Source: a virus
DNA length: 53,628 nt
Virus record (IMG/VR): IMGVR_UViG_3300022200_000063
Coordinates: 1-53,628 of that record
Direction: 5' to 3' (one strand)
Shown here: one piece after another, positions 22,667 through 49,219 of the stretch
Layout of the letters: each line of letters opens with the position of its first letter
How positions within the stretch are numbered: position 1 is the first letter of the stretch
Notes under the pieces: generated by a model
The model's database searches: none
Told to the model about the DNA's origin: nothing
Seen by the model: only the letters and a program-made list of their open reading frames with translations
Made by a program: the position numbers and the translations under genes

Positions 22667-25600
22667 TTAACAATTATTTAAATGCTTTAAAGTTTCGATT
22701 CTTGCTCCTAAAGGCATACTTTCAAAGACTTCCTTACTAACTTTAATAGTTTCTCCTTTAGCTTGATTCAAAATTACATATTTCTCATAAGAAGGATCTT
22801 TAATAATCTCTGCTATAGGTAAGATACCTTCTCTTAATTCTGGTGTTATAACAGGGGCTTCTCCAGGATCTTCTTCTGATAGAGCTTTTATTATTTTAAT
22901 ATTTGGAATATCTATATCAGGAAGATAAGCAAAAGGATCCGATGTTCCTGGTACATCTATATCAGGTAGATGAGCAAAAGGGTCCGATATTTCTGGTATA
23001 TCTATATCAGGTAAATTATTAAGACTATTTAAACTTCCTTCTATAGCTGTAAACTCTTCATTATTCATTCCTAAAACAGGAGTTGAGGTAGAATTCTTTA
23101 ATTTAAGAGTTACAGATTCTGTGATATCATTAAACATATTATACTCTACAGCAAAAAGAGAAGTTCCTAAAAGATTAATCTTAGTATAAAGCACGTGTCT
23201 TTCGCCTTCCTCTACTTTCTGATAAAGTTCTACCTTACCAGACTTGTTGCTAGTTTTGATAAATTTAGGAAAATTAAAGATACCATCTGCATCTTGTACT
23301 TGAATATTTCTAAAAGTAGCTTTATTTAATTTTAAAATTCCCTCCGAAGTCTGATGTTTTCTCCATCCTCTTACATCCTCTTTTTCTCCTGCAAACCTTA
23401 CGTTATCAGGAATACCTGTAGTATTATGAATAGCTAAAAAGGCCTGGTTAAATTTATCATCTTCAAAACGAACGTAATGGAGACTTTTAGAAACATGGAA
23501 AAGTTTTTTAGGATTTTGACGAGCTACGTCCATTAACTTTTGTAATTCATTAATATATCCTTCAAGTGTTTCTGCTTTTCTTACTCCATATTGATTAGCT
23601 TTTCCTAGAGGAGTTATCTTTCCTACATTAGGACCATCTAAAACTATTTGTACATCCATATTTCCAAAGTCTTTAACTTGTGGACTGAACAGAATACTTT
23701 CTGTAGTAGAAATGTTAGGAATCATTAATGATTTTTCTCCTGTATTCTGTACAAATTGCTTTTCAAATCTTTCTAATAAAGTAGTATCCCCCCCTTCAAT
23801 AGCAGCTAGTCCTGCTTCAATATGCTGGTTAAAACTTCTGTTTCCTCTACTCGGATCAGTTAATTCTAAATGTGGGTAATTTCTAGCAAATTTGTCAGTA
23901 AACATTATTTCTGGAACCAAATGGAAGAAAGTGTATGGTCCAAAATTAAATCCTGAAGAAAAGAAAGTATATTTTACTAAATCCATAGCTAATTTATGAA
24001 CAGCTGGGTCTGGACTAATTAGCATTTCATACCAAAGTCTTTTATAGTTGATGATATCTTGAGCGTTCTTACCTGTAGTATAGAAGCTGATTCTTTTTAT
24101 TGGAATCTTGTTATTAGCAGATTCAATATTAAGTTGTTCTAAAAATGGAATAAAAGGAGAATCAGGATTATTAGCTATAAAATCTCTCAAATTATCAGGC
24201 GTATCTTTAAGTACACTTTCTGCTTGATTATATTTAAAAGTAGGGAATCCAGAAGCTAGGAATGAAATCATCCCAGCATCAATACTGTTAGCCTCTTTTT
24301 CTGAAATACTGTAAATAGAATCTTTCATGTTAGAGAACCTAACCTTCAATCTTCCTAACTGAGATAATTTTATGGTATTATCCGATTTCAGTCTTCCAAT
24401 TGCAGGGAAAATTTCATTCATAATATCTATAAATTCTCTCCATCCATACTGAGTAAATGCAGCATTAATATGAACTCCCTCTTCTTTTTCTATCAAAAAG
24501 TCTTTTACTCCTAAAATAGGATACTCAGGATTATTTAAAATCTTAGATTGTTTATACATCTTAGAAAAAGCTGCTCCATGTGTAGGACCAGGACCACTTG
24601 TATCTGTTTTTGTAGCTCTTGTTACTTCTCCTAATTTTCCAGAAATATTTAAAATCTCTTCAAAAAGAGAAAGTACTTTATATTGATCCAAGAAATATTT
24701 GGCTTCAGTTCCTTTTACCAAAGAGTCTTGTAATTCTTCCAAACTGATGTCTACAATATTCTCATCAATAGTATTAAACTCTTCTTCAGAAATATTAAAC
24801 GATTTTTGAATCTTAGCTTTCAAGTCTTTCTTAATTCTCGCAAAGCTGGCATTACTTTCTTTCAGACTACCTTTAGCTTTGAAATAAGCATTAGTAACTT
24901 CCAGTATAATTGGCTGATTGATAAAGGTGAATGTATATTCTGATTCTACACCTAATCGAAGCATAGTAGCTATGATATCAGCTGTGTAAGTATTCATATT
25001 AAGATAAGAAGCAATAGGGTCTTTAGCATTATCCACTACTGCTGCAATAAGGTTTGCTAATGATTTAGAAATTCTTATCTTACCTGATTTAGTGTCGGAA
25101 TAAATTTTATTTAAATCTTGATACTCAACACCATTGATATAAATAGGAGTTCTTAATTTTAATTGAGAAAGTTGAGCTTTAGCATGGTGAACGTTATGGT
25201 TAGCAAAAATACCAATCAAATCGTTACCTGTCATATTTCTAACAAACAACTCTCTCTGAGTGGAAGGATAGTTAATATTAAAATCTATATCTTCTAGTCT
25301 ATCTATTAATTTTTTAAGAGCGTCTTGATAGTCATTAATGGTTATTTTCCCTGTACTATAATCACTGAATAACGCTAATGCTTCTTTTTTAAGCTCAGCT
25401 TTAGGTCCTTTTTTATCGCTTATTTTAAGTAGTCTTAATTTACTACCCAAAGCTTTTTCTTCAGCAAATCCTCCTGGATCTAATATAGACACTGCAGTAT
25501 TCCTATTTTTAAGAATACTCTTTACAATTTCCATTAAGCGGTTATCCCTTGATTTCTTTCCTTGAATGTCTGAGGCTTTTACAGAAACTCCTTCTAAACT

Positions 25601-28600
25601 TTCTACAATTGCATCTTTAATAGTATTAATTAATTGATTAGCTCGTGCTATAGATTCGTTATAAGGAATAAATGTTTCTAGTTCTGTTACTTTTTCATAA
25701 AGCAATTCTTGAAGAGCTTCTTTTTGTTTATTAGATTTTGCTTTTTCTATTTGTGCAGAAAGATTTTCTATCTCTAATTGTAATAATTTCTGCTCAGACT
25801 TCTCTTCGAAAGCTTGTTTCCTATAATCAAAAAGATTAATACGATTCTGTAGAATCTCTTCTACTGATAAAGTAACATTTTTAGTAGAAACTCCTTCAGG
25901 CAAATACGTTGTTAAGAATTTTTCTAGTCCTCTTAAGTCTCTGAAAATATGATCTACAATCTCTTTCTTACTACTGTTAGCACTTAAAGGTTTAATGTAT
26001 ACAGCTTGTTTTTTCCCATCTTTCTCTACTACATAGAAATTAGGAATCATCATAAATAATTTATCAATATCAAAGTCAAGACCTGCTATGGTAACAGCTT
26101 CTGGTGGAAGAATTAAGGTTCCTCCTTGTGCAGGATCTGTAAATCCTTTTACTCTGATATTAAACATAGAATATTTATCCTCTGTTGGAATACGATAACC
26201 TATTATTTCTAAAAGTTGTTCAGGAAGAACAGATAAATCCACTTCTCCATTAGGTAATTGAGGAAAGAATTTTTTACTCCACCAAGGAAGTAAAGCTTGA
26301 TATGTAATAGCTCCAGTTTTTGAATCTACTTCTATTTTTAAATCATCACTAATTCCAAAACCAGTGGTGTTAATCATATTACCACCATTAATCTTTTGTT
26401 TAATAATTCTATTATTAACAAAAGAATACATTAAGTTCTGAACTTTAATGTTTAATGATGGATGCCATAGAGGTAGGGCAGTAGTTGTCTTATTTGGATT
26501 AAGGTAATGAGGTATTAATTCTAAAGCCTCTAAATATCCAGGATCCATATTACGATCTTCTATCTCTCTTCTTAGAAACTCTACTAATTTTTCTAGACTA
26601 AAATTGCCATCCTTATCTTTAAATATTTTACGAACTCCTTCTGCAGATTCTTTAATATTGGCTACAATTAAATCTTGATATTCCTGGGCAAGTTCTCTAC
26701 CAGTTATTTTTTTACCGTTTCCATCTTCATAAATAGCATCAAAATCTAAATCAGCTATAATCAAATTTCTAATCTGCGAACCATAATTACCTATCTCATC
26801 TACATAGTGAGGAGGAGTCTCGTTTTGCAGTTTCCAGTCTTCTTGCTTTAGCGTAATTACTTCTGCTTCTTCGTTTAAAATGTAATTTCCAGAAGCGTCT
26901 TTTGTTAAATTATTTTTAATAGGTTCTCCTGATTCGTTTAATCCTGAAAACAGTCCTCCTACTTTAATAGCAGACTCAAAAACTATAGCATTAACTTCAT
27001 GTTCAGAACCATCTTTATGAGTTATTCCGTTTTCTAGAATTTCATATGCTTTCGCAAGTTTTGGGTATTTTAAATTTCCGTTTACATCTTTTCTCTCGGC
27101 CATTGCTCTAGTGAGTAGTACCTCTGAGTTTTTAACTTGTACAGGTACTATTGTTCCATCTATATTTATTTTAGTAAACATGAATGGTTTGATAGGAGGG
27201 AACAATGCTATATCATCAATACTTTCTACACCTTCTCTTATACGTACAGCCGCATCTCGGTGAGCTTGGGTAGTACGGTTCATACTATCTAAAATATCTA
27301 AATATCTTTCGATACTTATGTATGTAGCACCATCTGAATTATTATTACCTCTTTCTTTTGTACCTAAGTCTTTCCAAATACTTAATAAAGCTGCTTTCTT
27401 TTGAGGATTTAAATTTTTATCAGACATAATAAGTTCTGATATAGCTTTTACAGTTTCTTCTTCAGTAGGTACTATCTCATCTTCTAATATTAGAATATTA
27501 TAATCATTAACTACTTTAGTATCAGTATAACTACCAGGGCTAATTACTTGTTTAAATCTTTTCTGAAAATCTTCTGTATTCTTATAAAATGCAGGATCTC
27601 CAGCGAGAATAGTGTTGAGTTCTATATTAGTATAGAAAGTATTTAGTAAATAATTATCATAAAATTGTTTTTTATCTTTAATAGCATTACTGATCAACTC
27701 TTCTTCAAAACGAAGAGCTCCTTTATCATAATACAGAATTCCTTTTTCTTCTGCTTTTTGATATTCATTTGCTAAATACGTATTAAAAATATAGCTTTCT
27801 ATCTCTGAGCGTAATAGCCCTTCTTCTGTTTGTAATTCTTCTAGCGAATATTTAGAAGAATTTAAAAAAGATAGATTTACGAATTTAGTTCCATTTTCAA
27901 CATAGTTAGGAATAAAATTGAGTTTATGATTGTCAGGAATATTTTTTAATTTATTTATCCTAGCAATCTCTCCTAAAGCTAACTCTACTAAGTTGTCTAT
28001 AATTTGTTCATTAGTATATCTTCTGGCTTTTACAAAAGGTATATTGGTACTATTAGAAGGAATAGGAAGTTTGTAAAAACTGAACCCCTCCTCTTTTAGT
28101 CTTTCTTCTTTCGCATTATTTTGAAAAAACGCCAAACAAACAGCTTCTAATTCTGCAGGAGAAAGTTCGTCATATGGAATAGAATAGAACTTACCTTGTC
28201 TAGAAAGTGATTCAAACATCGCCACAGTAAGTCCTTCTTCCGAAGTAGAGAATGTTTTTAATTCTCCAGTCTCCATATCAAAAATATCGTTTATCATTGG
28301 AGATTTTGATAGAATAGGATCTTGTCTTATTTCTTCCCAAAATGCTTTAGCTTCTCTAGGATTAGTAAGTTTACTGAATAATTTATTTAAATAATTACTG
28401 TATTGAACTGTGTACTTTGTTTTATTATTAGAATCTCTAAAGGCCATATTCACATGAGTCTCTAATCCTAATTTAAGAGCCGCAGCTAAGCCAGCCACGG
28501 GACTTCCTATAGCAGTTTGATTCTCTCCTGAATCTGATTTTTTAATTTCCAAGAATGGATTCTGCCCTTCAGATAATTTTTGAAGAATGTCTTCAACTCT

Positions 28601-31600
28601 ATTTAAAACTTTGTGTACTCTTTTTACACTAGGAGAAACATCTGTTCTTACAGGTGCCCAAGTGTCTACTAATTGTTTAGTGGTTATTGGTAATTCTATA
28701 CTATAAAGAAATTCTGATATTTTTCCCAGTTCTGTAATAATAGTATCTTTCCCTCTAGCATTATCGAAATTTGTTCTTATTTCCTTGAACTCTGCAAGTT
28801 TTTGTAACGCAAATTCTTTATCAATAGAGGTAAAATCTTTTTGTCCTGATAACGGGCCTGATGTATGATTATTGAAAAATTTAGATTTGTGATTTAAGAA
28901 ATTGGCTATTAGGAAATCCTCAATAATCTTACCAATAGTTTTTCTGTTTTTATTAAATATACGATAGTGTCCTTTTTCATAATAAACTGTCATGTAGTTT
29001 ATATTTGACTTAGACGCTAATGTTACATACAAATCAACTACTAATCCATAATTAGATTGTAGTTTATCTAGAAGTTGAGGAATAAAATCTCTTTCATTTT
29101 TAATAGCTTCTAATTTTTCAAACATGTCCTCAACACTTGTAGAATTAGTAATCCTTTGAGACAAGAATGAGAACACCTCGTTTCCTGCAAAAGTCTCTCT
29201 TGCTCCAAATCTGTTTAGTAGAGGATTTCCATTTTTAGGATTAACTTTATAGAAGTTATTAAAGATTCTTTTCAGAGTTTGACTCATAGTGGTTCTTGGA
29301 TCGAACTCTGCTATATCTCTTTGCCAATTTTCTAAATCTCCTAATTTATTTTCATTATCTTCATCAGTTTCTTGTGGCTCTGTTCTATCCTCTACTAAGC
29401 CTACAGCAGAGGATAAATCCTTAATTATAATGCCATCTTCTGATTTAAGAGTTCTTAAAAAAGCCTGCATCAAAGGCATAGATTCTAAATCTACAGGAAT
29501 TAGATAAGTACCATCTGGACCTTTAACAGTTTCAAATACTTCTGGACTAAAAGAGATTTGTCCTCCTTCTCTAAAAATTACTCCTAATTCTGAAGCTAAT
29601 TGTTTAAACAACTCACTATTAGGTTTTAACTTATTCTTTCCATAAGTCTTTACTATTCTTGTAATAGTTTTTCCTAAGAGAACTCTAGGGCCTACTTTGG
29701 AAATAATATCAGGATCATTTAATCCTGCAAAACTCTGCTCTTCTAAACTTTTTAAAAGATCAGCTTCTTTAATAGAATTTATTTCCGCAAAGAAAGTCTG
29801 TTTAATATATTCAATAGCTTCTTTTTCTAGACGAATATCGGTAAAACTTGAATAAACTTTACTGATACTACTTGCTCTCATACTTTCAAATTCAGATGTA
29901 TCTGTATTTTTAAAAGTAATTGTATCCTTATATTTTCCAAATTGAATATCGGAAAATAGAGATTCTATAGATATAGTAGCTTTATTATTAAATAATGTTT
30001 TAATTAGTCTAAAGATATTCTTGAAGAAATCTGTTACTCTTTGTCCAAAAGTTTTAGGTCCTTCTTGTTTCTTAAAATCTAAAGTTCCATCAGATTGAAC
30101 ATATTCCATAAACTTATCTGCCAAAAGTTCTTCTACTTCTAGATAAGTAGGATTTTCACTCAATTCTGATTTAAATAATTCTTTAGCTTCTTTTAAAATT
30201 AAAATTCTTTCTTCTTTAGATAAAGCTAAATTAAAAACTACGTGAAAAGCCTCATGATAAGCTGTTCCTGCAAAAGCGTTATTTTTTAAATAAAGTCCTG
30301 CTTTTGTAAATAATCCTTGTAAAGAGCCAGGTTGTTTGGCTAAATTTCTTAGATACTCAAATCCTTTAGGACTTAGGTATTCTCTAAGTTCCTCTTCGGA
30401 TTCAAACATTGTAATCTTATCCCTAACAGCTTTTCCAAGTTTATCTTGAATCCATTGAAGTTCTTTTTCTTTATCCCAATGCTCTCCTATAGTAGTAGTC
30501 CTTGCTTTAGGATTATCATCGTTAGCAGAGAAATCTACGTCATCTGCCTCTCCTCCTAAGTCTTCGGTGTTCAACACTTGTCCAGTAGCTTCTGCAACTA
30601 AGTCAGCAGACTTACTAGCAGTTCCTCCTAATTCAGGAAGATCAATATCAGGAAGCTCTGTTAACAGTGCGAAATCTCCAACTTCTTCATCAATAGGTCC
30701 CTGTGTTTTTAAAGGAGCAACTTTTTTATCTTCATTCTGTTTTTTAGTAATAGTTTTAAACTCTGCTACATCAGAAATTTTAAAAAATTCGTTTCTTGCA
30801 GAATTCTTTTCTTCATTACTAATTTCGGCAGGAGTATTTTCTATAATATTACTTTGAGGTTTTCTTGCTTGTGTATATGCTTCAATTTTATAAACTTCTA
30901 TTTGGTTTCCTTCTATAACAGCATATACTTTAGCTTTTTTATTAGTATTAGGTATACTAACCTCTCTACTAATAATAATAGCAAGTTCATCTATAGGACT
31001 AGCAAAAGCTCTAGATTCTCCTTTTTTATTTTTTTGATCTTCTACTTCTTTTTTAGCCATTTCGTTTATGGCTGCTTTTTTGGAAGCCTCTTCTTCTTTT
31101 GCCTTAGAGATTTGCTTCTTAATGCTTTCTAAAATTTCAGGAGTATACTTACTAAAATCTTTTGTATCTAATACAAATCCAGAACTATTAAAGAAGTTTC
31201 CGTTTTCTTGATAAAGATCTGTTGTGAAGAATCCATCATCAGCATATTTTTCATTTTGACCTTTTTTATTAATTTCAAAATAGTTTATTCTAGCAAGCTT
31301 GCCAGGAGTAGACATTTTGCCTTCCTGATTTCTTTCTCCTATATATTTACCATCTTTATAAGTTCCTAAAATAATTGTATTAAGTTCTTCAGGGCGATTG
31401 GCTATCTCTTCTTTAATTGTACCATCTGCTTGAGCAGTTCTTACAATAATAGTATTTCCTTCTTTTTCAAAGGAAACTTTATACATATTTTTTTCTAATT
31501 TCTTTTTAGCTTTTGTAAAAGCATCTCCTTCTAAAGTAAAAAGTAATTTTAATTGATTCTCAATCTGTTTAGCTATTTTAGTTTCTCCTAAAAAAGAGTT

Positions 31601-32143
31601 TCTTAATGGTACAGCACGTACACCAGTCCCTGAAGGAATTAATAAATACGGTTTCCATAATTCCATTTTAGCAATAGGGTTCTGACTACCAGACTCTAAT
31701 GTTTTAATATACTTAATAGTTTTCTCGTCTGCTTTTCCATACTTAAGTCCGTCAGGCCCCTTGATTACAACAACAAAAGGAACTTTAGTTCTCTTCATTC
31801 CAGTTTTCTTTTGCTGTTCTTCTATTGCAGCATTGGCAGCTTTAATTACTTCGTTAGGATTATTTCTAGCATATACATTATCAAGAACCTGGCCGTCCTC
31901 TACTTGTCTTGAGTTATTAAACTTTCTATTAATTTTTCTAAGGATTCTTACAGAAATCCCGTCAGGCTTTGTTTTTTGTCTTTGTTTTCCTATATTACCT
32001 AATTGTTGGTCTACTGGAAATTCTGATATTTCTATATTTTCAGCTACTATTAATTGATCTAGTAATCCACTATATAATAATTCTTTAAAATTAGCCTCAG
32101 TAACCCATTGGCCATTAATATAATAAAGACAATTTGCTGCCAT
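22667..32143 (-). CDS. Giant crAss-like virion RNA polymerase polyprotein
   Basis: A 3,158-residue protein, the longest gene in the window. The catalytic motif is G-L-D-F-D-I-D-K-L-F, with Asp2023, Asp2025 and Asp2027, the DFDID metal-binding loop known from the crAss-like phi14:2 virion RNA polymerase. About 40-50 residues before it, G-Y-R-I-P-T-E-D-K-Y-S-M resembles the R-x-P-T segment of cellular beta-prime subunits. Family members are single-chain double-psi-barrel polymerases packaged in the virion and injected to transcribe early genes. Upstream, residues 630-634 are HEAFH with Glu671/672 in E-E-L-L-A-D, a zincin metallopeptidase signature. LPDIDLP occurs at 497, and three 15-residue LPDID repeats lie at 3044-3080. 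The 300-620 region is low-complexity and charged. The polymerase call is strong; the domain borders are estimates. Confidence 0.85.
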   Translation of the reverse strand: MAANCLYYINGQWVTEANFKELLYSGLLDQLIVAENIEISEFPVDQQLGNIGKQRQKTKPDGISVRILRKINRKFNNSRQVEDGQVLDNVYARNNPNEVIKAANAAIEEQQKKTGMKRTKVPFVVVIKGPDGLKYGKADEKTIKYIKTLESGSQNPIAKMELWKPYLLIPSGTGVRAVPLRNSFLGETKIAKQIENQLKLLFTLEGDAFTKAKKKLEKNMYKVSFEKEGNTIIVRTAQADGTIKEEIANRPEELNTIILGTYKDGKYIGERNQEGKMSTPGKLARINYFEINKKGQNEKYADDGFFTTDLYQENGNFFNSSGFVLDTKDFSKYTPEILESIKKQISKAKEEEASKKAAINEMAKKEVEDQKNKKGESRAFASPIDELAIIISREVSIPNTNKKAKVYAVIEGNQIEVYKIEAYTQARKPQSNIIENTPAEISNEEKNSARNEFFKISDVAEFKTITKKQNEDKKVAPLKTQGPIDEEVGDFALLTELPDIDLPELGGTASKSADLVAEATGQVLNTEDLGGEADDVDFSANDDNPKARTTTIGEHWDKEKELQWIQDKLGKAVRDKITMFESEEELREYLSPKGFEYLRNLAKQPGSLQGLFTKAGLYLKNNAFAGTAYHEAFHVVFNLALSKEERILILKEAKELFKSELSENPTYLEVEELLADKFMEYVQSDGTLDFKKQEGPKTFGQRVTDFFKNIFRLIKTLFNNKATISIESLFSDIQFGKYKDTITFKNTDTSEFESMRASSISKVYSSFTDIRLEKEAIEYIKQTFFAEINSIKEADLLKSLEEQSFAGLNDPDIISKVGPRVLLGKTITRIVKTYGKNKLKPNSELFKQLASELGVIFREGGQISFSPEVFETVKGPDGTYLIPVDLESMPLMQAFLRTLKSEDGIIIKDLSSAVGLVEDRTEPQETDEDNENKLGDLENWQRDIAEFDPRTTMSQTLKRIFNNFYKVNPKNGNPLLNRFGARETFAGNEVFSFLSQRITNSTSVEDMFEKLEAIKNERDFIPQLLDKLQSNYGLVVDLYVTLASKSNINYMTVYYEKGHYRIFNKNRKTIGKIIEDFLIANFLNHKSKFFNNHTSGPLSGQKDFTSIDKEFALQKLAEFKEIRTNFDNARGKDTIITELGKISEFLYSIELPITTKQLVDTWAPVRTDVSPSVKRVHKVLNRVEDILQKLSEGQNPFLEIKKSDSGENQTAIGSPVAGLAAALKLGLETHVNMAFRDSNNKTKYTVQYSNYLNKLFSKLTNPREAKAFWEEIRQDPILSKSPMINDIFDMETGELKTFSTSEEGLTVAMFESLSRQGKFYSIPYDELSPAELEAVCLAFFQNNAKEERLKEEGFSFYKLPIPSNSTNIPFVKARRYTNEQIIDNLVELALGEIARINKLKNIPDNHKLNFIPNYVENGTKFVNLSFLNSSKYSLEELQTEEGLLRSEIESYIFNTYLANEYQKAEEKGILYYDKGALRFEEELISNAIKDKKQFYDNYLLNTFYTNIELNTILAGDPAFYKNTEDFQKRFKQVISPGSYTDTKVVNDYNILILEDEIVPTEEETVKAISELIMSDKNLNPQKKAALLSIWKDLGTKERGNNNSDGATYISIERYLDILDSMNRTTQAHRDAAVRIREGVESIDDIALFPPIKPFMFTKINIDGTIVPVQVKNSEVLLTRAMAERKDVNGNLKYPKLAKAYEILENGITHKDGSEHEVNAIVFESAIKVGGLFSGLNESGEPIKNNLTKDASGNYILNEEAEVITLKQEDWKLQNETPPHYVDEIGNYGSQIRNLIIADLDFDAIYEDGNGKKITGRELAQEYQDLIVANIKESAEGVRKIFKDKDGNFSLEKLVEFLRREIEDRNMDPGYLEALELIPHYLNPNKTTTALPLWHPSLNIKVQNLMYSFVNNRIIKQKINGGNMINTTGFGISDDLKIEVDSKTGAITYQALLPWWSKKFFPQLPNGEVDLSVLPEQLLEIIGYRIPTEDKYSMFNIRVKGFTDPAQGGTLILPPEAVTIAGLDFDIDKLFMMIPNFYVVEKDGKKQAVYIKPLSANSSKKEIVDHIFRDLRGLEKFLTTYLPEGVSTKNVTLSVEEILQNRINLFDYRKQAFEEKSEQKLLQLEIENLSAQIEKAKSNKQKEALQELLYEKVTELETFIPYNESIARANQLINTIKDAIVESLEGVSVKASDIQGKKSRDNRLMEIVKSILKNRNTAVSILDPGGFAEEKALGSKLRLLKISDKKGPKAELKKEALALFSDYSTGKITINDYQDALKKLIDRLEDIDFNINYPSTQRELFVRNMTGNDLIGIFANHNVHHAKAQLSQLKLRTPIYINGVEYQDLNKIYSDTKSGKIRISKSLANLIAAVVDNAKDPIASYLNMNTYTADIIATMLRLGVESEYTFTFINQPIILEVTNAYFKAKGSLKESNASFARIKKDLKAKIQKSFNISEEEFNTIDENIVDISLEELQDSLVKGTEAKYFLDQYKVLSLFEEILNISGKLGEVTRATKTDTSGPGPTHGAAFSKMYKQSKILNNPEYPILGVKDFLIEKEEGVHINAAFTQYGWREFIDIMNEIFPAIGRLKSDNTIKLSQLGRLKVRFSNMKDSIYSISEKEANSIDAGMISFLASGFPTFKYNQAESVLKDTPDNLRDFIANNPDSPFIPFLEQLNIESANNKIPIKRISFYTTGKNAQDIINYKRLWYEMLISPDPAVHKLAMDLVKYTFFSSGFNFGPYTFFHLVPEIMFTDKFARNYPHLELTDPSRGNRSFNQHIEAGLAAIEGGDTTLLERFEKQFVQNTGEKSLMIPNISTTESILFSPQVKDFGNMDVQIVLDGPNVGKITPLGKANQYGVRKAETLEGYINELQKLMDVARQNPKKLFHVSKSLHYVRFEDDKFNQAFLAIHNTTGIPDNVRFAGEKEDVRGWRKHQTSEGILKLNKATFRNIQVQDADGIFNFPKFIKTSNKSGKVELYQKVEEGERHVLYTKINLLGTSLFAVEYNMFNDITESVTLKLKNSTSTPVLGMNNEEFTAIEGSLNSLNNLPDIDIPEISDPFAHLPDIDVPGTSDPFAYLPDIDIPNIKIIKALSEEDPGEAPVITPELREGILPIAEIIKDPSYEKYVILNQAKGETIKVSKEVFESMPLGARIETLKHLNNC
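22904..23014 (-). repeat. Tandem 45-nt coding repeat (LPDID repeats) in the RNA polymerase polyprotein
   Basis: Two full 15-codon units and the start of a third, encoding L-P-D-I-D-I/V-P followed by a variable pair, then S-D-P-F-A-H/Y. Codons 3044, 3059 and 3074 begin the units. DNA identity between units is high, so they arose by recent duplication. A fourth single copy (LPDIDLPE) lies at codon 497, near 30640-30655. Confidence 0.85.
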
Positions 32144-32180: not shown

Positions 32181-33047
32181 TCAATCACATCTTTTATGCT
32201 CTTGTGATTCAGGATCGAAGAAGAAATTAATTTTTTTATTAATGATTTTTTCTACAATATTCTCGAAATTTTCATTAATAAATTTAGCTCTTTCGATTCT
32301 TTCTTTGCCATATTTTTCAAGAAGTTTCTTTTCTTGAGCAGGTCTTTTAGAAGCTCTCACTGAATTTAAAGCATTGAGTTCCATCAGAATTTTATTGTCG
32401 ATAACTTCAGGAACTATTAATGCAGGAGTAGGGAGTTGAGATTTTAATTCTTGGATTTTACTTTTTAGCTCATTTACTTTTTCAGAATTTACTTTAACCC
32501 CACTTGTTGGTTGTATTGTAGGTTTAGCTTCTGTTAATTCTATTATCTCTTTTTTTAATTCTGGAAAAGCTTTATTTAGATTTTCTATTTGTACTTTAAT
32601 ATCTGAATCTAAAATATCTTTATTTCTAGAATCAAAATAATTTTCAACTAATTCAGATAAATTATAATGCTCTAAGCCGTCTTTATTAGGAATAGTAATT
32701 TTAATAAACTCTTCTCTTAAAATAAGGTCTTGATTGGTATCTCCTTGTTCGTTTTCAAATTGTAAATTTTTATTAAAGTCATCAACTGTTAGAGGTCTTG
32801 ATACTCCTTCTTCAATTAATACAGTTATATTTCCAGAGTCTACGACTCTTTTCCATAAAAGTTTATTTAATTTTTCAGTAACATCTTGAACTGTAGTTTT
32901 CTTTGTTATAGGTTGAACAGATAAGGATTTTAAATAATCTTCTACAACTCCTTCTTTGGCAGCCCAAACTACATAAGCCGTAGGTTCTCCTACAGCTTTT
33001 TCTAAATCTTTCCAGATCTTTAATCTTTTATTAGGACAGCTAATCAT
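32181..33047 (-). CDS. Hypothetical 288-residue protein with CPNK module and coiled coil
   Basis: The N-terminal 40 residues (M-I-S-C-P-N-K, K-I-W-K-D-L, A-V-G-E, then A-Y-V-V-W) form a short module that I associate with the starts of large crAss-like virion proteins. The rest is charged and mainly helical: residues about 180-215 are a Lys/Leu/Glu coiled coil, with a Pro-rich break (L-P-T-P-A-L-I-V-P), and the C-terminus is basic with F-F-F-D-P-E-S. It overlaps the ferritin gene by four bases and ends 37 bases before the polymerase start. Likely virion cargo, or an assembly partner or scaffold of the polymerase. No enzyme motif. Confidence 0.6.
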   Translation of the reverse strand: MISCPNKRLKIWKDLEKAVGEPTAYVVWAAKEGVVEDYLKSLSVQPITKKTTVQDVTEKLNKLLWKRVVDSGNITVLIEEGVSRPLTVDDFNKNLQFENEQGDTNQDLILREEFIKITIPNKDGLEHYNLSELVENYFDSRNKDILDSDIKVQIENLNKAFPELKKEIIELTEAKPTIQPTSGVKVNSEKVNELKSKIQELKSQLPTPALIVPEVIDNKILMELNALNSVRASKRPAQEKKLLEKYGKERIERAKFINENFENIVEKIINKKINFFFDPESQEHKRCD

Positions 33048-33529
33048 AGATATCTCTCTACATAATGATCAAGTACTAATTTATCAGAAGTAAGTTTAGC
33101 ATGATCTAAAATATCAATAGCTTTTCCTACTTCTTCTACCTGCTCTGCACAATATTTAGAAGCTAATGCAAAAAGTCCTGTGTGCTTCATTTCTAGAGCT
33201 TTTTGAGCCAGTTCTTCACATTGCTTAGTAATCATAAGCTCATGGTCTAAAGTAGCCTCTAATACATCCATATAACTTTCAAATTCCATTACAGGAGAAT
33301 TCAGACTTTGTAGTTGAGGAGTAATACCGAAGTTCAATAGAAAATCCATAGACCATTCTGCATGGAGCTTCTCTTCTCCTTCATATTTTTTATATAGAGC
33401 AGCTAAATGTTTAAATCCTTGGTTATCAAACCAAAGAGACATTTGATGATATAATCTTGAACTAAATTCTTCTTGTTGAATTCTGTAATTCAAAAGTTCT
33501 ATAATCTTTTCGTCTAGTAGATTTCTCAT
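33044..33529 (-). CDS. Ferritin (non-haem, FtnA-like)
   Basis: A 161-residue four-helix-bundle ferritin, almost the length of E. coli FtnA (165). It aligns by eye along its whole length: S-S-R-L-Y-H-Q-M-S-L-W against S-S-L-L-Y-Q-Q-M-S-A-W, and L-D-H-E-L-M-I-T against Y-K-H-E-Q-L-I-T. The ferroxidase centre is complete: Glu20, Glu53, His56, Glu97, Gln130 and Glu133. It should oxidise Fe(II) and store iron in a 24-subunit shell. The gene overlaps the 1,260-residue cargo gene by one base (TAATG) and the next gene by four, so it is an integral part of the late operon, not a cloning or assembly stray. No signal peptide. Haem-binding bacterioferritin is unlikely because the length and residues match FtnA better. 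Confidence 0.9.
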   Translation of the reverse strand: MRNLLDEKIIELLNYRIQQEEFSSRLYHQMSLWFDNQGFKHLAALYKKYEGEEKLHAEWSMDFLLNFGITPQLQSLNSPVMEFESYMDVLEATLDHELMITKQCEELAQKALEMKHTGLFALASKYCAEQVEEVGKAIDILDHAKLTSDKLVLDHYVERYL

Positions 33530-36500
33530 TATTTACATAATTTTTTAATTAGTTCTCCTGTTTCTTCCATAGTCAGAGCGTCTATTTCTTCAGGAGTTAA
33601 AGTTACGGATTTTTCTTCTTTTAATATATTTTTTAAGTCAGATAACATTTTATCTTCCTCAGTTTCAGTTTGTTTTTCTAAATCAGTTAATTGTTTTTCT
33701 AATTCTCTAATTTGATCTTCAATTTCCTTAACGTTTATTTCTGTACCTTTTTTGACAGCTCTCATATTATGTTCGTTAAGGATAGCTTGTCTTAATGCTA
33801 ATAAATTACCCGCTCCTTTAGCAGTAGGTAATTTGCCAATAAAAATTTTCTTACCTGTAGCTTCGTCTGTATAATAAGCTCTAATGTCCATATTAGAGAC
33901 GTCAGTAGTAGACTCTCTATTATACTCAGTATCAGGTATTTCAAAAGTAGCTTCTCTAATATTAGTTCTTAAATCTTTATTTGATAAAAATTCAGGACTA
34001 TTTACTATAGCAGAATCAAATTCTTTTTCTTTTAAAGGGTGGTCTTTAGGTTTACCACTTTCATCAAATTCATATCCAGATTTTGTAACCTTCTTATCAT
34101 AAATCATAGTGATGAAAACTTCATCAGAATCTGTATCTTCAAATATTTCAGCTACTCTACTATAGTCTACTTCAGGTGACGCTCCTTCTACTGCAGGTTG
34201 ATACTCATCTTCAGAATCTTCAAAAATAGGCCTGTTAAAACTGATTTTCTCTAATTGTTTAATTTTAGCCAGTACCTCTTCAATACTGTTTAGTATCTTA
34301 TAATGGATGGATTCGTCTATTTCTGTTAACTGAATTAAATCATCTACAGATTTAATTCCAGGAACATCCACTCCTTTAGCCTTTAGAGAATTTACAACAG
34401 CGGAAAGTAGTGATGGATATTTATCTAAAAATCTTATTAATTCTCTAATATCATTATTAGATAAATTACCCAAATCGCCTGGTTTTATTTTTTCATATTC
34501 ATTTATTCCTTTAATGATATTTAAATGTACTATAGGATCTAAAGCATCAGAATTTCCAAAAAGAGCGTCGGCCTCTTCTACTGAAGTATTTACTTTAGTA
34601 TTCTTAGTATTTTTAACTTGATCTTTTAAAAGATCTACCATAGCTTCAGCCATTTTTTGAGAATGAACTGCTTTGAGAGTAGCAGTAAATTTAGCTAACT
34701 CTTTTTGTCCTTTAGCCGTAAATAAATTTTCATATAATTTAGCAGCTTGTGCCTTTCGTATTTTTAGATCTTTGATATCCTGAATAGACTGTTTTAAAGT
34801 AGGAGACATCAGACTGTATCTGATAGGATCTGACTTTTTAAATTCTGCTAATATTTCATCTATTTTTTTATTTATAGTTTCTTTAAATTCCGCTCTACCT
34901 GTCTTATCATTTATTCCTGCAAGTTCTACAGCCATACTATCTAAAGAACTCAAATCAATACCTATAGAAGCTCCAGTACCAAATACAGACCCTCCCTTAG
35001 AAGTCTTTTCTATATTTTCGAGAATTTCTGATTCTCTTATTTCTGTATTATCTATTGTCGATCTTAAATAAGCTAATTGCTTGACAAGTCCATCTTGATA
35101 TTCTTTTGGAGTAATTCTTGCAGTTACTTGATTATTAGTGTCTTTATATAAATTAGTAATAAATCTTTGTATTTTTTCTACAACAGTATCTGGATGGTTT
35201 TCCATCAATAACTTAACATTATCAATCTCTTCTACAATTTTTGCAGCACTTGATTCTGCTTTTTCTAAAGCTTTTTTTCTTTGGGCTTCTGTAAATTGGA
35301 ATTCTTTTGAACCGTATACTTCGTTAAACTTAGCTAAAGGAAGCTTTTTGGCGTTCTCTATATCTTGAAAAATAGAATCTACTATACCGAGTTCTGCTCT
35401 GTTATAGATTAAGTCAAACATTTGCTGATGTTCCGAGTTCTTAAATTCAAAGACATCATTATTAACAGCGGCTGCGTCTGCATTTTTTTGAGCCTCTGTT
35501 CTGGTAAAATGAGATTGAAAATTCTTAGCTAAAACAGGATTTTCTTTTTGTTGTAATGTATTCATTTTCGAAGCGAAGGCCCTTGCTTCTCTTGATTGAC
35601 TCCTAAGTTCTCTTATTTCCGATCCTGCCCCACCAAAACTTTGCAGTTTAAGTCTGTATTTACCTTTTGCATTTTGTTTTATTACAGGAAGCTTTAATCC
35701 TAATAATCCCATAGCAGCTCCAATAGAAATAGAAGAAACTCCTTCATCAGAATTTGCAAATTTTCTAGCGGCACCTACTAAAGAATTTATAAAATACACT
35801 TGTTCTTCAGTATTCTGAGCTCCGTACATGTGTCCGTAATAATCTAATAGCCCTTCTTCTAAAGCCCCTTGAGCAAATTCCTCAAATCCTTCTGATATAA
35901 AACCTTTTGTAGCTGCTTTAGTATATCCAAAATATTTTTGTATCCCAAATTCAGAAGCATCTACATTAGCTACTCTTTTACCATTAACAAATCTAGTTCC
36001 TGAAAAAGATTTAGGATCTAAATATTTATAATTTTTTCTAGCTCCGTTAATAGCGGTATTCCAGTTTTTTAAATATAATTTAGGAAATTGTATAAAATTA
36101 GATCCTGCTACTAAAGGTAAATTTATAGTATAAGCCATAAATCCAGCCTCATCGGCTTTTGCTCTATATAGTTTTTCTTGTTGCTCTGTTAAAGGTCCTT
36201 CATGCTGAGATATTAATTCGTTATAAACTCTATCGCTTGTACTACGTCCTATCAAACTATTTTCTAAACTACTAGATCTTAAAGCAGACATGATAGTAGA
36301 ATTAGTTTGAAAAAACTTTGCATAATAAGCTTTAGCTTGAGTGGCTTTTGCTGCATCATCCAGTTTATCTAGACCTTTAAGTACTCTGTAAGATTTTCCA
36401 AACGCTCTTACTGCTTGAGCTTCTAATTTAGCTGTATTAGCTGCTACACTGGCTCCTCCTGTAAATGGAGCAGCGGCTGTAGCCAATAATTCAGTTACTA

Positions 36501-37311
36501 CAGCACCTGCTACAAATGATATTGCAGGAGCCATCTCATCATTAAAAATTTTAACAGGATCAGATCCTACTCTTGTAAAGAAATCTTTTTTGACTGGCTG
36601 TCCAAACTCATCATACTTTATTCCTCCTGTCACAGGATCTATTTCCCAAATATTACTTCCTCCATAAATAAAAGTATATTTATCAATACTTCTATCTACA
36701 TATTCCCAAGCATCAAATGCGGAGTTGTTAAAAAGTTTAGCTGGGTCTAAATTTATAATAGCACTTCCTACTCCATAAATTGCAGGTAATATTCCTAAAA
36801 CATTCCAAGCGGTTTTTCCTATTAATTTACCTGTAGTCTTGCCTAATTCTGTAATCCATCCCTCATTCTCATCTAAATCATCTACAAAGTTTTTTATTGA
36901 TTTATGATAATTCTTTTCTTTATATTTAATAAGATCTTTGAAATCATTTTCAAAATGAATTCCAAAAGTATTAAGGTCTGTTAAGTTGACTAACTTTTGT
37001 CCGTTTTTTCTAATGTAAGCCTCTCTTTCATAAGGATCTGGAATAGCTCTTGCTATATCCACAGGCTGAATAACTTTACGAAGTTTTTCAGTATTAAATA
37101 TAGTAGAACCTGTCAAATGAATGTCCATACCAGCAGTACTAGCATTTCCTACAGCTTTTACTGCCTGTTCTTCTAGAGATTCAGGTTTTTTATATTTTAC
37201 ATTATCGAAGTCTAAAGTATTATCTACTGGATCTGGTATAGTAGAAGGTCCTTTTAATTTGATTTCTTTAGAATCAATTATATCTGATATAGGATTTCTT
37301 TTCTTTGACAT
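33529..37311 (-). CDS. Large cargo/ejection-type protein with hydrophobic segments, 1,260 residues
   Basis: Family not recognised; position and composition suggest an internal virion protein released with the DNA. Residues about 160-190 (A-W-N-V-L-G-I-L-P-A-I-Y-G-V-G-S-A-I) and 262-290 (I-S-F-V-A-G-A-V-V-T-E-L-L-A-T-A-A-A) are long enough to insert in a membrane, and a third weaker stretch lies near 530 (G-A-A-M-G-L-L-G). The middle is Ala-rich helix. The C-terminal 80 residues are a strong coiled coil (E-I-E-D-Q-I-R-E-L-E-K-Q-L). Hydrophobic patches inside a soluble protein fit pore-forming ejection proteins as known for podophages such as T7 gp14-16. That role is inferred. It is followed directly by the ferritin gene. 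Confidence 0.55.
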   Translation of the reverse strand: MSKKRNPISDIIDSKEIKLKGPSTIPDPVDNTLDFDNVKYKKPESLEEQAVKAVGNASTAGMDIHLTGSTIFNTEKLRKVIQPVDIARAIPDPYEREAYIRKNGQKLVNLTDLNTFGIHFENDFKDLIKYKEKNYHKSIKNFVDDLDENEGWITELGKTTGKLIGKTAWNVLGILPAIYGVGSAIINLDPAKLFNNSAFDAWEYVDRSIDKYTFIYGGSNIWEIDPVTGGIKYDEFGQPVKKDFFTRVGSDPVKIFNDEMAPAISFVAGAVVTELLATAAAPFTGGASVAANTAKLEAQAVRAFGKSYRVLKGLDKLDDAAKATQAKAYYAKFFQTNSTIMSALRSSSLENSLIGRSTSDRVYNELISQHEGPLTEQQEKLYRAKADEAGFMAYTINLPLVAGSNFIQFPKLYLKNWNTAINGARKNYKYLDPKSFSGTRFVNGKRVANVDASEFGIQKYFGYTKAATKGFISEGFEEFAQGALEEGLLDYYGHMYGAQNTEEQVYFINSLVGAARKFANSDEGVSSISIGAAMGLLGLKLPVIKQNAKGKYRLKLQSFGGAGSEIRELRSQSREARAFASKMNTLQQKENPVLAKNFQSHFTRTEAQKNADAAAVNNDVFEFKNSEHQQMFDLIYNRAELGIVDSIFQDIENAKKLPLAKFNEVYGSKEFQFTEAQRKKALEKAESSAAKIVEEIDNVKLLMENHPDTVVEKIQRFITNLYKDTNNQVTARITPKEYQDGLVKQLAYLRSTIDNTEIRESEILENIEKTSKGGSVFGTGASIGIDLSSLDSMAVELAGINDKTGRAEFKETINKKIDEILAEFKKSDPIRYSLMSPTLKQSIQDIKDLKIRKAQAAKLYENLFTAKGQKELAKFTATLKAVHSQKMAEAMVDLLKDQVKNTKNTKVNTSVEEADALFGNSDALDPIVHLNIIKGINEYEKIKPGDLGNLSNNDIRELIRFLDKYPSLLSAVVNSLKAKGVDVPGIKSVDDLIQLTEIDESIHYKILNSIEEVLAKIKQLEKISFNRPIFEDSEDEYQPAVEGASPEVDYSRVAEIFEDTDSDEVFITMIYDKKVTKSGYEFDESGKPKDHPLKEKEFDSAIVNSPEFLSNKDLRTNIREATFEIPDTEYNRESTTDVSNMDIRAYYTDEATGKKIFIGKLPTAKGAGNLLALRQAILNEHNMRAVKKGTEINVKEIEDQIRELEKQLTDLEKQTETEEDKMLSDLKNILKEEKSVTLTPEEIDALTMEETGELIKKLCK

Positions 37312-37326
37312 ATTGTAAAGATAAGA

Positions 37327-40300
37327 TTATTTAAGATTTTGACTTAATCTTTTAGCTAAATCTATACTTGTAAATGCAGGAATAACATCTTGTTTGCCTA
37401 AAGAAGGAATAAATCTACTTGGCCCAGTTCCCCACATCAAATCCAAAGCTCTCATATTTTGAGCATATCCTCCATTAGAAGAAGATAAGTTTACAATTGT
37501 ATAAGGAACTTCTCCCCCTTCAGATAATAGTTGTCCTGATTCATCTAGGTTAACCTGATATATTTGAGCATCTACACTCTTACTTCTATTGTTATAAGCA
37601 TAAACTATCTTGAATCCTGTATAAGAACCATCTTCGTTTCTCTTAAATGTAGCAGGTTGATGCTCTAAAGTCAAACTTGTTTTGCCATTCTTATTACCAT
37701 ACTCCATCATTTTAGTTAATGTAGTAGCACCTTCAAAGTATTCCTTCTGAACTTCTCCATCTACTAAGTTCAAATTAGCGTATGTATGAATACTATTTCC
37801 TAAAAGCTCTTCTGCTCTTGCATTAGGATAACCTGACCGTTCTCCTTCAATGATATTATTGACAGATTTAGTTACATTTTCATGATATTTTAAATCTGAT
37901 ATTCCTTTTCCATTTACATAATGGGTAGTATTATCTACAGCTACAATTAAATTTGTAGGATACTTTTGTCTAAACGATTGTAAGTAACTGTCTTTTTCAT
38001 TTTTAGTTAACTTATTCCAATCCTCATTACTAAGATTTTTAGCCTTTTTAATAGCGGAAATTGCGTCTGCATCGGTAGTACTAGTATTAGTATACTGTAA
38101 TAAAACTTTTTCAGTATCACCGTCTTTAATTGTTTTTAATAATATAGGTTGACCATAATACTTAGCAAGTTCCAAATCTTTAGGATAACCTTCTTCTCCT
38201 GGGCTCACCGTTTCTACAGAGTCTCCAGAAAATTTAGTGACAATAGAAATACCCTGATGGGCATTATTAATATTAGCTTTTATATAATCTACTAATTCAT
38301 GTAACTTACCCCCTGTCCAATTCTTTAAACTATCGTCTATAGCGATTCCTGGAGTAGTCATAGTAGCTTGGTTTTTATAAACCATTTGAATTCTTTTCTG
38401 AAGTTTATTCAACATTGGAGTAATAGCTTGATTCTGCAATTGTTGAACCTCTTGTCTGTCCATTTCAAGTTGCCCTAAATTTGTAAATTCTTGATTTATA
38501 TCTCCAGTACTTCTACTTATTGCTTGAGGTAATAAACTCAATCGTTTCTTACTTTCTAAACCTATTCTTTCCCAAGCTCTATCGAAATCTCCAGATTTAA
38601 CTTCTTTTACTAACTCAGGATCATAATCTACATCACTCTCAGATAATCCGTTAATAGTTTCAAGTAGATACATATTAACAGGATTCATTATAGCTTCTTT
38701 CTCTTCTTTTAGTTTATAGATAGTTTGATTATTATTAATTATTTCAGCTTTAATTCTTTCCTGTTCTGCACCTGTAGCACTTGATACTTGATCTTCTAGT
38801 ATTTTATTATTAGCTTGAAGGTCTTCTATCTTATCATTATAAGTATTATTAAACTTATTTATTTTATGATAAACCTTAGCATTACTGAGTTGATTATCCA
38901 CCAATTCTCTATCTGCTTCAGATATCTCATCATTGTTAACCCACTCACTAAATTTAACAGGTTTTTCTCCTGGTTGTACATTTACATCGTAGAATATGGG
39001 AATATCCTCTATTTCAGATAACCACTCTTCTTCTACTTCTGGGTCAGTAATAAAGCTGAAGAAATCTTTATTACCAAAGTTTTCTTTAGCAAATTCCGAG
39101 CTCACTTCTCCAGGAGAATATGATTGATTTATGTCTCCATCTGAAGTAGTAACACTTTGACTTACTACATTAACAGTGCTGTTTTCTAAATCATCATTAG
39201 TGATTTTATTTGAACCAGAAGAACCATTTCCTACATTATCTGTATAAGGAGTCAGTGATTTTTTAGATTTCATAAAATCAAAAATATCAGCACTTGTACC
39301 AGAGTATCCTAAAATTTTTCCTGTAATATAGTCAGCCTCAAATATCGCTTTACTAAGATTTTCTAACTTTTCTGGATCTCCTCCAGTAGCAGTAATCTGA
39401 TTAAATTCTTGATTATATTGTTGTTTACTATCTTCTAGTTTTCCAATTAAATCGGAGAAATATTTTTTCTCTTCGTCTGTTTTAGCTTTTTCTAATCCTG
39501 CTCTAGCATTATTTAAATCAGAATCTATAGAATTTAAATAATTTATTATAATGCCTTCTGCATATCTTCTTCTACCGTCAGGACCTCCCATACTTCGAGA
39601 GTTTACATAATACTCATCTCTTGCATTATCTCTTAAAGAATTTTTAAAATAATCAGACTGAGCTAAGTGTTTATATAATTCTGAATGTAATTGATCTTTA
39701 TTTTTCCACTCTTCTTGAACTGTTGTTTTAAGTCTTTCTCGTGTATCAGCATCTAACCATGTCCAACCAGAAATAGTATCTTGAGCTATTTCCCATGAAG
39801 GAGCCGCCTTAGAAAGTTCTTCTGTCTTTTCCATTAATTCTTTTTCTCTATCTATATTTCTAGGAGAGGAGTCAAAAGAATTATAAGAGCCAGTACTTCT
39901 ATCATAAGCAGCTCCTCCCTTTTCAGCATACTCTCCTAAAACTCTTTGTTCCCAATTTTTAAATCTAGTTTCGTCGAGATCCTCTTTTTCCACCATCTTT
40001 CTCATAATCTCTCTATCTTCTGAAAATTGTGCTTTTCTTTGTCGATATAAAGCAATTTCAGGATCAGAGTTGTAGATCTTATTTAGCCTTCTTAATTCTT
40101 TAGCAGCATTTCTGTAGTCTTTATCCTTTAATAGATTAGTTGTAAGTCCTTCTTTAAATTGATCAAATTCAGCACTAATTTGTTGAGCTCTTTCTGCATC
40201 TGCAGGCAATGTAGAAAAATCAAAAGCAGCCTCATCTATGACTTGTTGTGTTAAGTCATAAGTTTGTTGCATTTGAGATAAAGGTGCTGCAAACATTGTA

Positions 40301-40368
40301 AAGTCTACAGAACTTGGTGTATATTTAGCAGGAGTATATCCTTGAAATTTTGGACTTCCGTTCGGCAT
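37327..40368 (-). CDS. Large helical virion protein, 1,013 residues
   Basis: Not recognised as an enzyme. The N-terminus is Pro/Tyr-rich (P-K-F-Q-G-Y-T-P-A-K-Y-T-P), followed by long charged helices with coiled-coil character to about residue 320, then a Ser/Thr/Asn-rich acidic centre and a mixed C-terminal half. No membrane segment or signal peptide. It lies in the block between the GH19 protein and the hydrophobic 1,260-residue protein, with only one base separating it from the former. In crAss-like phages genes in this place encode proteins packed in the capsid or tail as cargo. Confidence 0.55.
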   Translation of the reverse strand: MPNGSPKFQGYTPAKYTPSSVDFTMFAAPLSQMQQTYDLTQQVIDEAAFDFSTLPADAERAQQISAEFDQFKEGLTTNLLKDKDYRNAAKELRRLNKIYNSDPEIALYRQRKAQFSEDREIMRKMVEKEDLDETRFKNWEQRVLGEYAEKGGAAYDRSTGSYNSFDSSPRNIDREKELMEKTEELSKAAPSWEIAQDTISGWTWLDADTRERLKTTVQEEWKNKDQLHSELYKHLAQSDYFKNSLRDNARDEYYVNSRSMGGPDGRRRYAEGIIINYLNSIDSDLNNARAGLEKAKTDEEKKYFSDLIGKLEDSKQQYNQEFNQITATGGDPEKLENLSKAIFEADYITGKILGYSGTSADIFDFMKSKKSLTPYTDNVGNGSSGSNKITNDDLENSTVNVVSQSVTTSDGDINQSYSPGEVSSEFAKENFGNKDFFSFITDPEVEEEWLSEIEDIPIFYDVNVQPGEKPVKFSEWVNNDEISEADRELVDNQLSNAKVYHKINKFNNTYNDKIEDLQANNKILEDQVSSATGAEQERIKAEIINNNQTIYKLKEEKEAIMNPVNMYLLETINGLSESDVDYDPELVKEVKSGDFDRAWERIGLESKKRLSLLPQAISRSTGDINQEFTNLGQLEMDRQEVQQLQNQAITPMLNKLQKRIQMVYKNQATMTTPGIAIDDSLKNWTGGKLHELVDYIKANINNAHQGISIVTKFSGDSVETVSPGEEGYPKDLELAKYYGQPILLKTIKDGDTEKVLLQYTNTSTTDADAISAIKKAKNLSNEDWNKLTKNEKDSYLQSFRQKYPTNLIVAVDNTTHYVNGKGISDLKYHENVTKSVNNIIEGERSGYPNARAEELLGNSIHTYANLNLVDGEVQKEYFEGATTLTKMMEYGNKNGKTSLTLEHQPATFKRNEDGSYTGFKIVYAYNNRSKSVDAQIYQVNLDESGQLLSEGGEVPYTIVNLSSSNGGYAQNMRALDLMWGTGPSRFIPSLGKQDVIPAFTSIDLAKRLSQNLK

Positions 40369-44080: not shown

Positions 44081-44081
44081 T

Positions 44082-48419: not shown

Positions 48420-49219
48420 GCTATATTACTAGGGCTTTGTACAATACGTCCTGGATAAATTGAACCTCCAGAAGTTTTTTCTCTAAATTTACGTTGTTCA
48501 GGTAATTGAAAATTAGCAAAGAAAGAAGCGTGGGCTTGTAAATCAGGAATTGTACGAACATGGGAATTCTTAACAGATTCTGCATGATCAACATTATGCC
48601 ATTGTTTAGCATGATTTACTGCTTGAGCAAAATACCAATCTCTTTCTTTTTGAATTTCTGCATATTTTTGTGGAGCAAGTGCATCTTGTATCCATCTTTT
48701 ACGAGCTGCTTTCCACGCGAGTTCATGACTTGCAGCTTCTAACCATTGCTGTTCTGCTGGAATAACTATGTCTCCGTGTTCGTCAGTAGGAATAGCTTCA
48801 TAAGCCATAGCCACATATCCTTCAGAAAAAGAAGTAAAAATAGAATTATTACTTACAGTATAAGTGTGAATAGACTCTGTTGTGTAGTCTCTTTCATCTT
48901 TATGATATCTTGTATGGAAATGATCCGAACTCCAACGCATAGGACATAAATGCCCTTTACCACATTCAGCTTCTTCTAATGATATCACATCATCTAAATA
49001 GGCTACTTGAACAATTTTGTGTAAGTCGTAAGGAAGTTCTCCTCTACCATCACAAATAGGAATATAAGCAATTTGTTGGCTCATTACGACTCCTACATTA
49101 GTATGAGCCATAAATTCAGCCAACCATTCTAAACCTTGTTCGTCATCTATTTCAAACCCCCAATCACGTAACTGTTTATCCATGATGGTTTTGTATGACA
49201 CCATTTTTCCTGCGTACAT
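48416..49219 (-). CDS. Neck/tail ring-type structural protein, 267 residues
   Basis: Belongs to the conserved crAss-like tail block by position and by a characteristic central line F-S-E-G-Y-V-A-M-A-Y-E-A-I-P-T-D. The N-terminal half holds a strand-rich region with P-I-C-D-G-R-G-E-L-P, and the C-terminal half has long helices rich in Trp (A-A-R-K-R-W-I-Q-D-A). No membrane segment. It is probably a ring or adaptor protein between portal and muzzle. The precise ring number cannot be decided from sequence reading alone. Confidence 0.58.
   Translation of the reverse strand: MYAGKMVSYKTIMDKQLRDWGFEIDDEQGLEWLAEFMAHTNVGVVMSQQIAYIPICDGRGELPYDLHKIVQVAYLDDVISLEEAECGKGHLCPMRWSSDHFHTRYHKDERDYTTESIHTYTVSNNSIFTSFSEGYVAMAYEAIPTDEHGDIVIPAEQQWLEAASHELAWKAARKRWIQDALAPQKYAEIQKERDWYFAQAVNHAKQWHNVDHAESVKNSHVRTIPDLQAHASFFANFQLPEQRKFREKTSGGSIYPGRIVQSPSNIA

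Follow-up and report, generated by a model that had tools for sequence, protein, structure and literature searches.

Ferritin is a host housekeeping protein, and bacterial FtnA (E. coli 1eum and 4ztt; A. fulgidus 1s3q) resembles the protein described here in its five-helix fold (TM ~0.9), in ~30% identity and in iron sites A, B and C. Among phages of Bacteroidetes, ferritin-superfamily enzymes are known from the gut families Gratiaviridae and Flandersviridae, in which Dps and manganese catalase have been proposed to act in oxidative stress (Benler 2021, PMC8008677); FtnA-type ferritin is not among the enzymes that this study names. The Enterobacteriaceae myovirus Sajous1 encodes a ferritin-like protein, gp217, whose gene shares a putative operon with that of a tail completion protein; peptides of gp217 were detected by mass spectrometry (PMC10892097). 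Gp217 was assigned by Phyre2 at 22% identity, and no conserved slot is described for it; we set it apart from the present ferritin by its description, not by sequence.

The cargo modules of crAss001 (gp45 to gp50) and phi14:2 (g065 to g067) share the gene order muzzle, C1, C2, gp47, gp50, gp49 with the locus described here. The virions of crAss001 contain gp45, gp46, gp47, gp49 and gp50 (PMC10172136), and structural and cargo genes are late in crAss001 and phi14:2 (review PMC10136315). Neither module lists a ferritin, whereas in the present phage the gp47-like C3 gene is split and a ferritin gene lies in the split. In a literature search, mostly of open-access papers, ferritin was not reported from any crAss-like phage, and the two other papers containing both "ferritin" and "crAss-like" did not describe an FtnA-type ferritin in them. 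The structure collection BFVD contains a few viral ferritins.

The ferritin gene and its operon

The whole stretch of DNA analysed (the window; IMG/VR record IMGVR_UViG_3300022200_000063, 53,628 nucleotides) is a 53.6-kb fragment of a crAss-like phage, as indicated by Pfam matches of the muzzle, the ring proteins and cargo protein 1 and by crAss001 matches of the giant virion RNA polymerase proteins; TerL, portal and MCP fall outside it. The same Pfam matches (muzzle, ring 1, ring 2 and cargo protein 1) bear out the original prediction of a phage late/cargo operon. On the minus strand the genes run in the order ring 2, ring 1, muzzle, C1, C2, C3, ferritin, 288-aa protein, gp50-like, gp49-like, the crAss001 counterparts of the series from ring 2 to the polymerase being gp43 to gp50. 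Replication genes lie on the opposite strand. The features are as follows:

50006..50710, minus strand, tail ring protein 2 (Pfam)
48416..49219, minus strand, tail ring protein 1 (Pfam)
44082..48419, minus strand, crAss muzzle protein (Pfam, 498.9 bits)
40370..44101, minus strand, cargo protein 1 (C1, crAss_CARG1) with a glycoside hydrolase 19-like segment (Pfam)
37327..40368, minus strand, cargo protein 2 (C2, gp46 position), 1013 aa, no cysteine (crAss001-like order, homologues)
33529..37311, minus strand, N-terminal piece of cargo protein 3 (C3, gp47-like), 1260 aa (24% match to crAss001 gp47)
33044..33529, minus strand, type I phage ferritin (P0001), 161 aa (ORF, Pfam, PDB search, model)
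32181..33047, minus strand, 288-aa gene, a chimera that holds a split-off part of a cargo protein (homology to a gp49-like start and to the C3 end)
22667..32143, minus strand, gp50-like virion RNA polymerase protein, 3158 aa (crAss001 gp50 homologues)
18559..22665, minus strand, gp49-like RNA polymerase protein, 1368 aa (crAss001 match)

Both neighbours of the ferritin gene had been taken for virion-protein genes; the cargo context stood, and the downstream gene is better described as the split, chimeric cargo piece listed above. The GH19 (chitinase/lysozyme-like) segment covers residues 216-297 of cargo protein 1 (29.4 bits) and perhaps serves in cell-wall crossing. Elsewhere in the window, adjoining rIIA-like and rIIB-like genes (10763-13192 and 13457-14752; PHROG matches) recall the pair familiar from T4-like phages, an ORF between the replication genes (417-1061) contains YWLGYLCADG and by eye resembles a LAGLIDADG-type homing endonuclease, and the early region encodes a macro-domain protein (6888-7403; 27.4 bits), possibly for counter-defence against ADP-ribose signalling.

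The ferritin ORF runs from 33529 to 33044 on the minus strand (161 codons), and the plus-strand frame is stop-ridden; the complete ferritin gene predicted here was thus confirmed, and its strand, missing from that prediction, was supplied. The foreseen overlaps of 1 and 4 bases were found in the sequence, the start overlapping the upstream stop in TAATG and the downstream start overlapping the ferritin stop in ATGA. The protein matched Pfam Ferritin at 66.5 bits (cut-off 24.5) and, in a phmmer search of the PDB, FtnA-type ferritins at E ~1e-18 over residues 5-149. The AlphaFold2 model (monomer; mean pLDDT 95) has five helices including helix E (7-37, 40-66, 86-113, 117-146 and 150-160). Its top structural matches in the PDB were FtnA-type (TM ~0.91, rmsd ~1.4 Å, 158 columns), and it compared with E. 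coli FtnA 1eum at TM 0.91, so that the sequence searches and the structural comparison agree on the likeness to E. coli FtnA that had been claimed.

The di-iron site A/B was complete, with E20, E53, H56, E97, Q130 and E133 (E17, E50, H53, E94, Q127 and E130 in E. coli numbering). These are the six ferroxidase residues originally named, and the residues of the third iron site C were also present (E52, E129 and E132; E. coli E49, E126 and E129). The E. coli FtnA sequence used for the ligand alignment matches the segment of a related PDB chain save at a few positions. Bacterioferritins have Glu127 and His130 as site B ligands and a heme-ligating Met52; this identity was rejected, as the equivalent pair is Q130/E133 and the best matches are non-heme ferritins. 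Dps proteins lack helix E and form the di-iron site between subunits; they were rejected because the window protein has helix E and a complete intrasubunit site. Its C-terminus consists of helix E and one residue, without an encapsulin-type C-terminal cargo-loading peptide. Together, the matches and the predicted structure identify the product as a true FtnA-type ferritin subunit of a phage-specific subfamily, and the gene is complete and apparently working.

Two types of ferritin in crAss-like phages

Scanning IMG/VR with the window protein gave 51 loci, and a second scan, with only the C-terminal half as seed, gave 117 relatives, 80 of which were kept; the two sets overlap and their contigs are redundant, and reduction left 74 non-redundant complete sequences of this subfamily (type I). 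Virion-module ferritins were present in >100 contigs of relatives. The neighbours of type I genes were crAss-like (Crass_capsid, ring, muzzle, terminase and portal genes). Of 86 ferritins, 85 started ≤30 nt from the upstream ORF. Type I ferritins occupy at least seven gene positions, always among virion genes:

Inside C3, the window ferritin
Slot 2, with the gp50-like polymerase gene on one side and the gp49-like one on the other, 14 sequences as well as L009 and L013
Slot 3, downstream of MCP, flanked by the genes of a 232-aa virion protein and of a ~540-aa protein, 34 sequences plus L025
Slot 4, between portal and MCP, 14 sequences and a further four that are truncated
Before the muzzle, L072
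With tail genes on one side and cargo genes on the other, L050
Upstream of the terminase, L022

E20, E53, H56, E97 and Q130 were invariant across 74 type I sequences and 13 sequences of a second type (type II; 87/87 in all). All type I sequences have E133, and all type II sequences have Ala at that position; E52 of site C varied in 17 of the 74 type I relatives. Median dN/dS values of 0.18 (type I) and 0.135 (type II) indicated purifying selection. Unlike bacterial FtnA, the type I proteins are phage-encoded and form a distinct subfamily with the conserved helix-A motif N[YF]R[IV]xQEExSxR. The apparent invariance of NYRIQQEE was partly a search bias, since the motif had been a seed; the C-terminal-seeded scan gave N[YF]R[IV][QE]QEE variants.

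Among 50,697 phage records, no relative of the subfamily was found beyond weak matches to unannotated fragments and two Staphylococcus phage records, and no named phage record held a close type I member. Ferritin had been called unusual among virion genes, which is true of these named phages but not of environmental crAss-like phages, where it recurs. When 84,980 prokaryote genomes were searched for a cellular donor, the single match, a MAG contig, grouped inside the phage clade. That contig, from a Tissierellales MAG (L134; JACIXZ010000027.1, 5524 bases), carries a phage-type ferritin and is probably of phage origin and binned with the MAG.

The nearest relatives of the window were collected through the muzzle protein (mostly 39-50% identity), and 25 of these records were searched for ferritin. 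Ferritin was found in 14 of them, in every case of type II, its gene sitting between C3 and the gp50-like gene, one boundary away from the position of the window ferritin. Type II gave no BLAST match to the window ferritin. It keeps E20, E53, H56, E97 and Q130, has Ala at position 133, which we take to be comparable to A144 of human H ferritin, and is without site C; its closest solved relatives are H-type eukaryotic ferritins, and its model was weaker (pLDDT 74.8, five sequences). In some relatives C3 stands directly before the polymerase gene, the slot being intact and the ferritin absent, and the other blanks are contigs ending before the slot. Because several relatives with an intact slot have no ferritin at all, the ferritin is not essential. 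Common descent of the window ferritin with that of its relatives was rejected, as type II forms a separate clade (100/99) and lies after the end of C3, not inside it. The search of crAss-like genomes for ferritin in the same place, proposed with the original prediction, thus revealed that ferritins recur, but that their positions vary and that the nearest relatives have type II next door or none.

Function of the phage ferritin

Taken as a whole, the explanation that we consider probable, with due reserve, is that the gene encodes a late-expressed intracellular ferroxidase of the phage-specific FtnA type, imported from a phage with ferritin in slot 2. The protein would be translated from the late virion/cargo mRNA, and the observed stop/start overlaps suggest that its translation is coupled to that of the neighbours. 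FtnA-type ferritins form shells of 24 subunits in which iron is mineralised. Late in infection, the phage subunits would assemble into a shell that oxidises iron and takes away free Fe(II) together with the O2 or peroxide spent in oxidising it, and Fenton damage would thereby be limited during genome copying and particle assembly. We infer the late expression by analogy, and the role in iron oxidation and protection from the protein family. The ferritin is catalytically intact, has repeatedly been moved, always among particle genes, and is swapped in sister phages for an unrelated-looking ferritin. Because the subfamily is kept intact, repositioned among particle genes and replaced by another ferritin next door, iron/oxygen chemistry late in infection is probably under real selection in environmental crAss-like phages, whose gut relatives are the most abundant gut phages, and iron handling seems to matter at this stage of their infection.

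It is rather unlikely, yet deserves serious weight, that the ferritin is packaged as virion cargo, either protecting the packed genome or cysteine-bearing cargo from peroxide or being injected with the RNA polymerase. In every lineage the gene adjoins cargo, RNA polymerase, portal, MCP or ring/muzzle genes, and the counterparts of its neighbours here are the crAss001 virion proteins gp45, gp46, gp47, gp49 and gp50 (PMC10172136); non-virion proteins, however, are also encoded in late operons. The best hint comes from the MCP-side (slot-3) ferritins, which bear an N-terminal extension of 20-60 aa that starts with [L]LKR in 28 of 34 sequences and continues as a variable linker (L028 9881-10504, L034, L049 and L102 are examples, the start being written [L]LKR[PET]). 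From its sequence this extension looks like a targeting tag, of the layout expected of one, but the window ferritin and those in the RNA polymerase slot are without it. An encapsulin-like cargo tag was also considered for the extension, which is N-terminal, not C-terminal. Against packaging, moreover, the terminal cysteines that mark the cargo string (see below) are absent from ferritins, and the tail constrictions are <50 Å (PMC10172136), so that injection would need unfolding.

We regard as improbable the proposals that the ferritin mainly withholds iron from the host or from competing phages, or that it loads particle iron for entry through siderophore receptors (Ferrojan Horse). The latter was proposed for Sajous1, a Vi01-like phage in whose virion preparation peptides of the ferritin-like gp217 were found, but Sajous1 infected TonB- and FeoB-deficient hosts as well as wild type (PMC10892097); the crAss-like ferritins, besides, are not tail-fibre genes, and nothing in the present data points to surface exposure. 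That the fold was recruited for structure or scaffolding, with no iron chemistry, is very improbable: the virion-module position and the weak Dps-like fold match shared by predicted viral "prohead protease" proteins would suit it, but the core di-iron ligands, which a purely structural part does not need, are invariant in all 87 sequences of two divergent subfamilies. The prohead protease proteins matching the ferritin model are from uncultured Caudovirales (BFVD A0A6J7XDU5, A0A6J7WPK9 and A0A6J7WIS1), and the matches suggest Dps-like domains fused to capsid-assembly proteins.

Probable entry into the cargo gene and cysteines at facing ends

In the tree, the window ferritin nested in the slot-2 clade (100/96) on a long end branch. 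The first ~40 codons of the 288-aa gene (32928..33047, minus strand) matched the gp49-like start that follows slot-2 ferritin (SISCPNKRLKIWKDL), as in the alignment with the gp49-like start of L057 (ISCPNKRLKIWKDL). The last 20 codons of the C3 piece (33529..33591, minus strand) resembled the last part of the gp50-like gene found ahead of slot-2 ferritin (LSEDELGELLKKICK; LIKKLCK vs LLKKICK), a similarity that is weak alone (45% over 20 aa against L057; E 0.01-0.2). The window retains its own, different gp50 end and gp49 start. The C3 piece is homologous to the C3 of relatives up to residue ~1199, and the C-terminal part of the 288-aa protein (aa 188-288; 32181..32486, minus strand) matched the C3 C-terminus (L253, E 1e-9; L166, E 4e-10); by this homology it is the cut-off end of cargo protein 3.

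Because both flanks are foreign and the 288-aa protein ends as C3 does, a block of ~670 bases (~32928-33591, comprising the ferritin with a gene end before it and a gene start behind it) appears to have entered the 3' part of C3. The block would have been imported by recombination from a crAss-like phage carrying ferritin between two virion-RNA-polymerase genes, and its entry would have split C3 into the 1260-aa and 288-aa proteins, as their homology supports. Read in this way, the window copy is an insertion, not an old fixture. The view that the gene is fixed in the operon did not survive, as the copy carries foreign gene ends and interrupts a cargo gene, and the nearest relatives have another ferritin or none.

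It is hardly credible that a bacterial ferritin or that of another phage was mis-joined into the contig during assembly: no second contig covers the junction (an exact-junction DNA search turned up no other assembly of this phage, and L135, a contig of 100% identity, stops ~5 kb short) and the nearest relatives carry a different ferritin, but both joins are in frame with the stop/start overlaps kept, the composition of the ferritin gene fits its neighbours (GC 0.321 vs 0.315; GC3 0.191 vs 0.156), its product is ≤62% identical to any other ferritin found, so that no known contig could be the source, and the relatives' contigs with virion-module ferritins exceed 100.

The C3, gp50-like and gp49-like proteins were nearly cysteine-free internally (0.05%). 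At all 23 junctions of 15 chains, however, the upstream chain had a cysteine in its last ten residues, nearly always in the last four, and the downstream chain had one in its first six. The chains include phi14:2 (g067, g066, g065), crAss001, crAss002 and phi17:2 (named genomes L053 and L258-L271). True outer ends were without cysteine, the one outer match (L167) being a chain with gp49 cut by the locus end; a mere N-terminal preference for cysteine was rejected, since the series has none at its outer ends. Within the window, the C3 piece ends in KKLCK, its sole cysteine being the next-to-last residue, the 288-aa piece begins MISC and ends KRCD, and the polymerase begins MAANC; the gp50-like protein has cysteines at residue 5, at the last residue and at one internal position, and the gp49-like protein has a single one at residue 3. 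C1, C2, muzzle and ferritin are without terminal cysteines (one muzzle exception).

Some choices in this count were post hoc: the second start of crAss002 was shifted to an internal ATG giving MSC, and the ten-residue limit admits crAss001 gp50, whose cysteine is ninth from the end. Left out were cr108_1 and cr116_1, in which the polymerase genes are apparently intron-cut at the catalytic DxDxD motif. The expected chance per junction was ~1e-5, the related genomes not being independent.

As a tentative but real possibility, the sequences suggest that the cysteines at facing ends link successive chains by thiol/disulfide bonding into an end-to-end string, which could be divided into two to four polypeptides without losing ejection order; a ferritin block flanked by such ends could then split C3 and leave the string intact. 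Such a link was absent from the literature searched. Exposed by the ferritin insertion, the terminal-cysteine rule offers an explanation, open to test, for the ordered exit of several giant polypeptides from the capsid, and this side result may matter more than the ferritin finding.

Intron-like cuts in the polymerase genes of L002, L006, L057 and cr108_1 were without terminal cysteines. These apparent cuts fall at the catalytic GSDFDxDKMY of the gp50-like genes (L002 6062-7005; L006 7326-7575; L057; cr108_1, L265 15122-15413), and in L057 a 214-aa ORF lies between the gp50-like parts.
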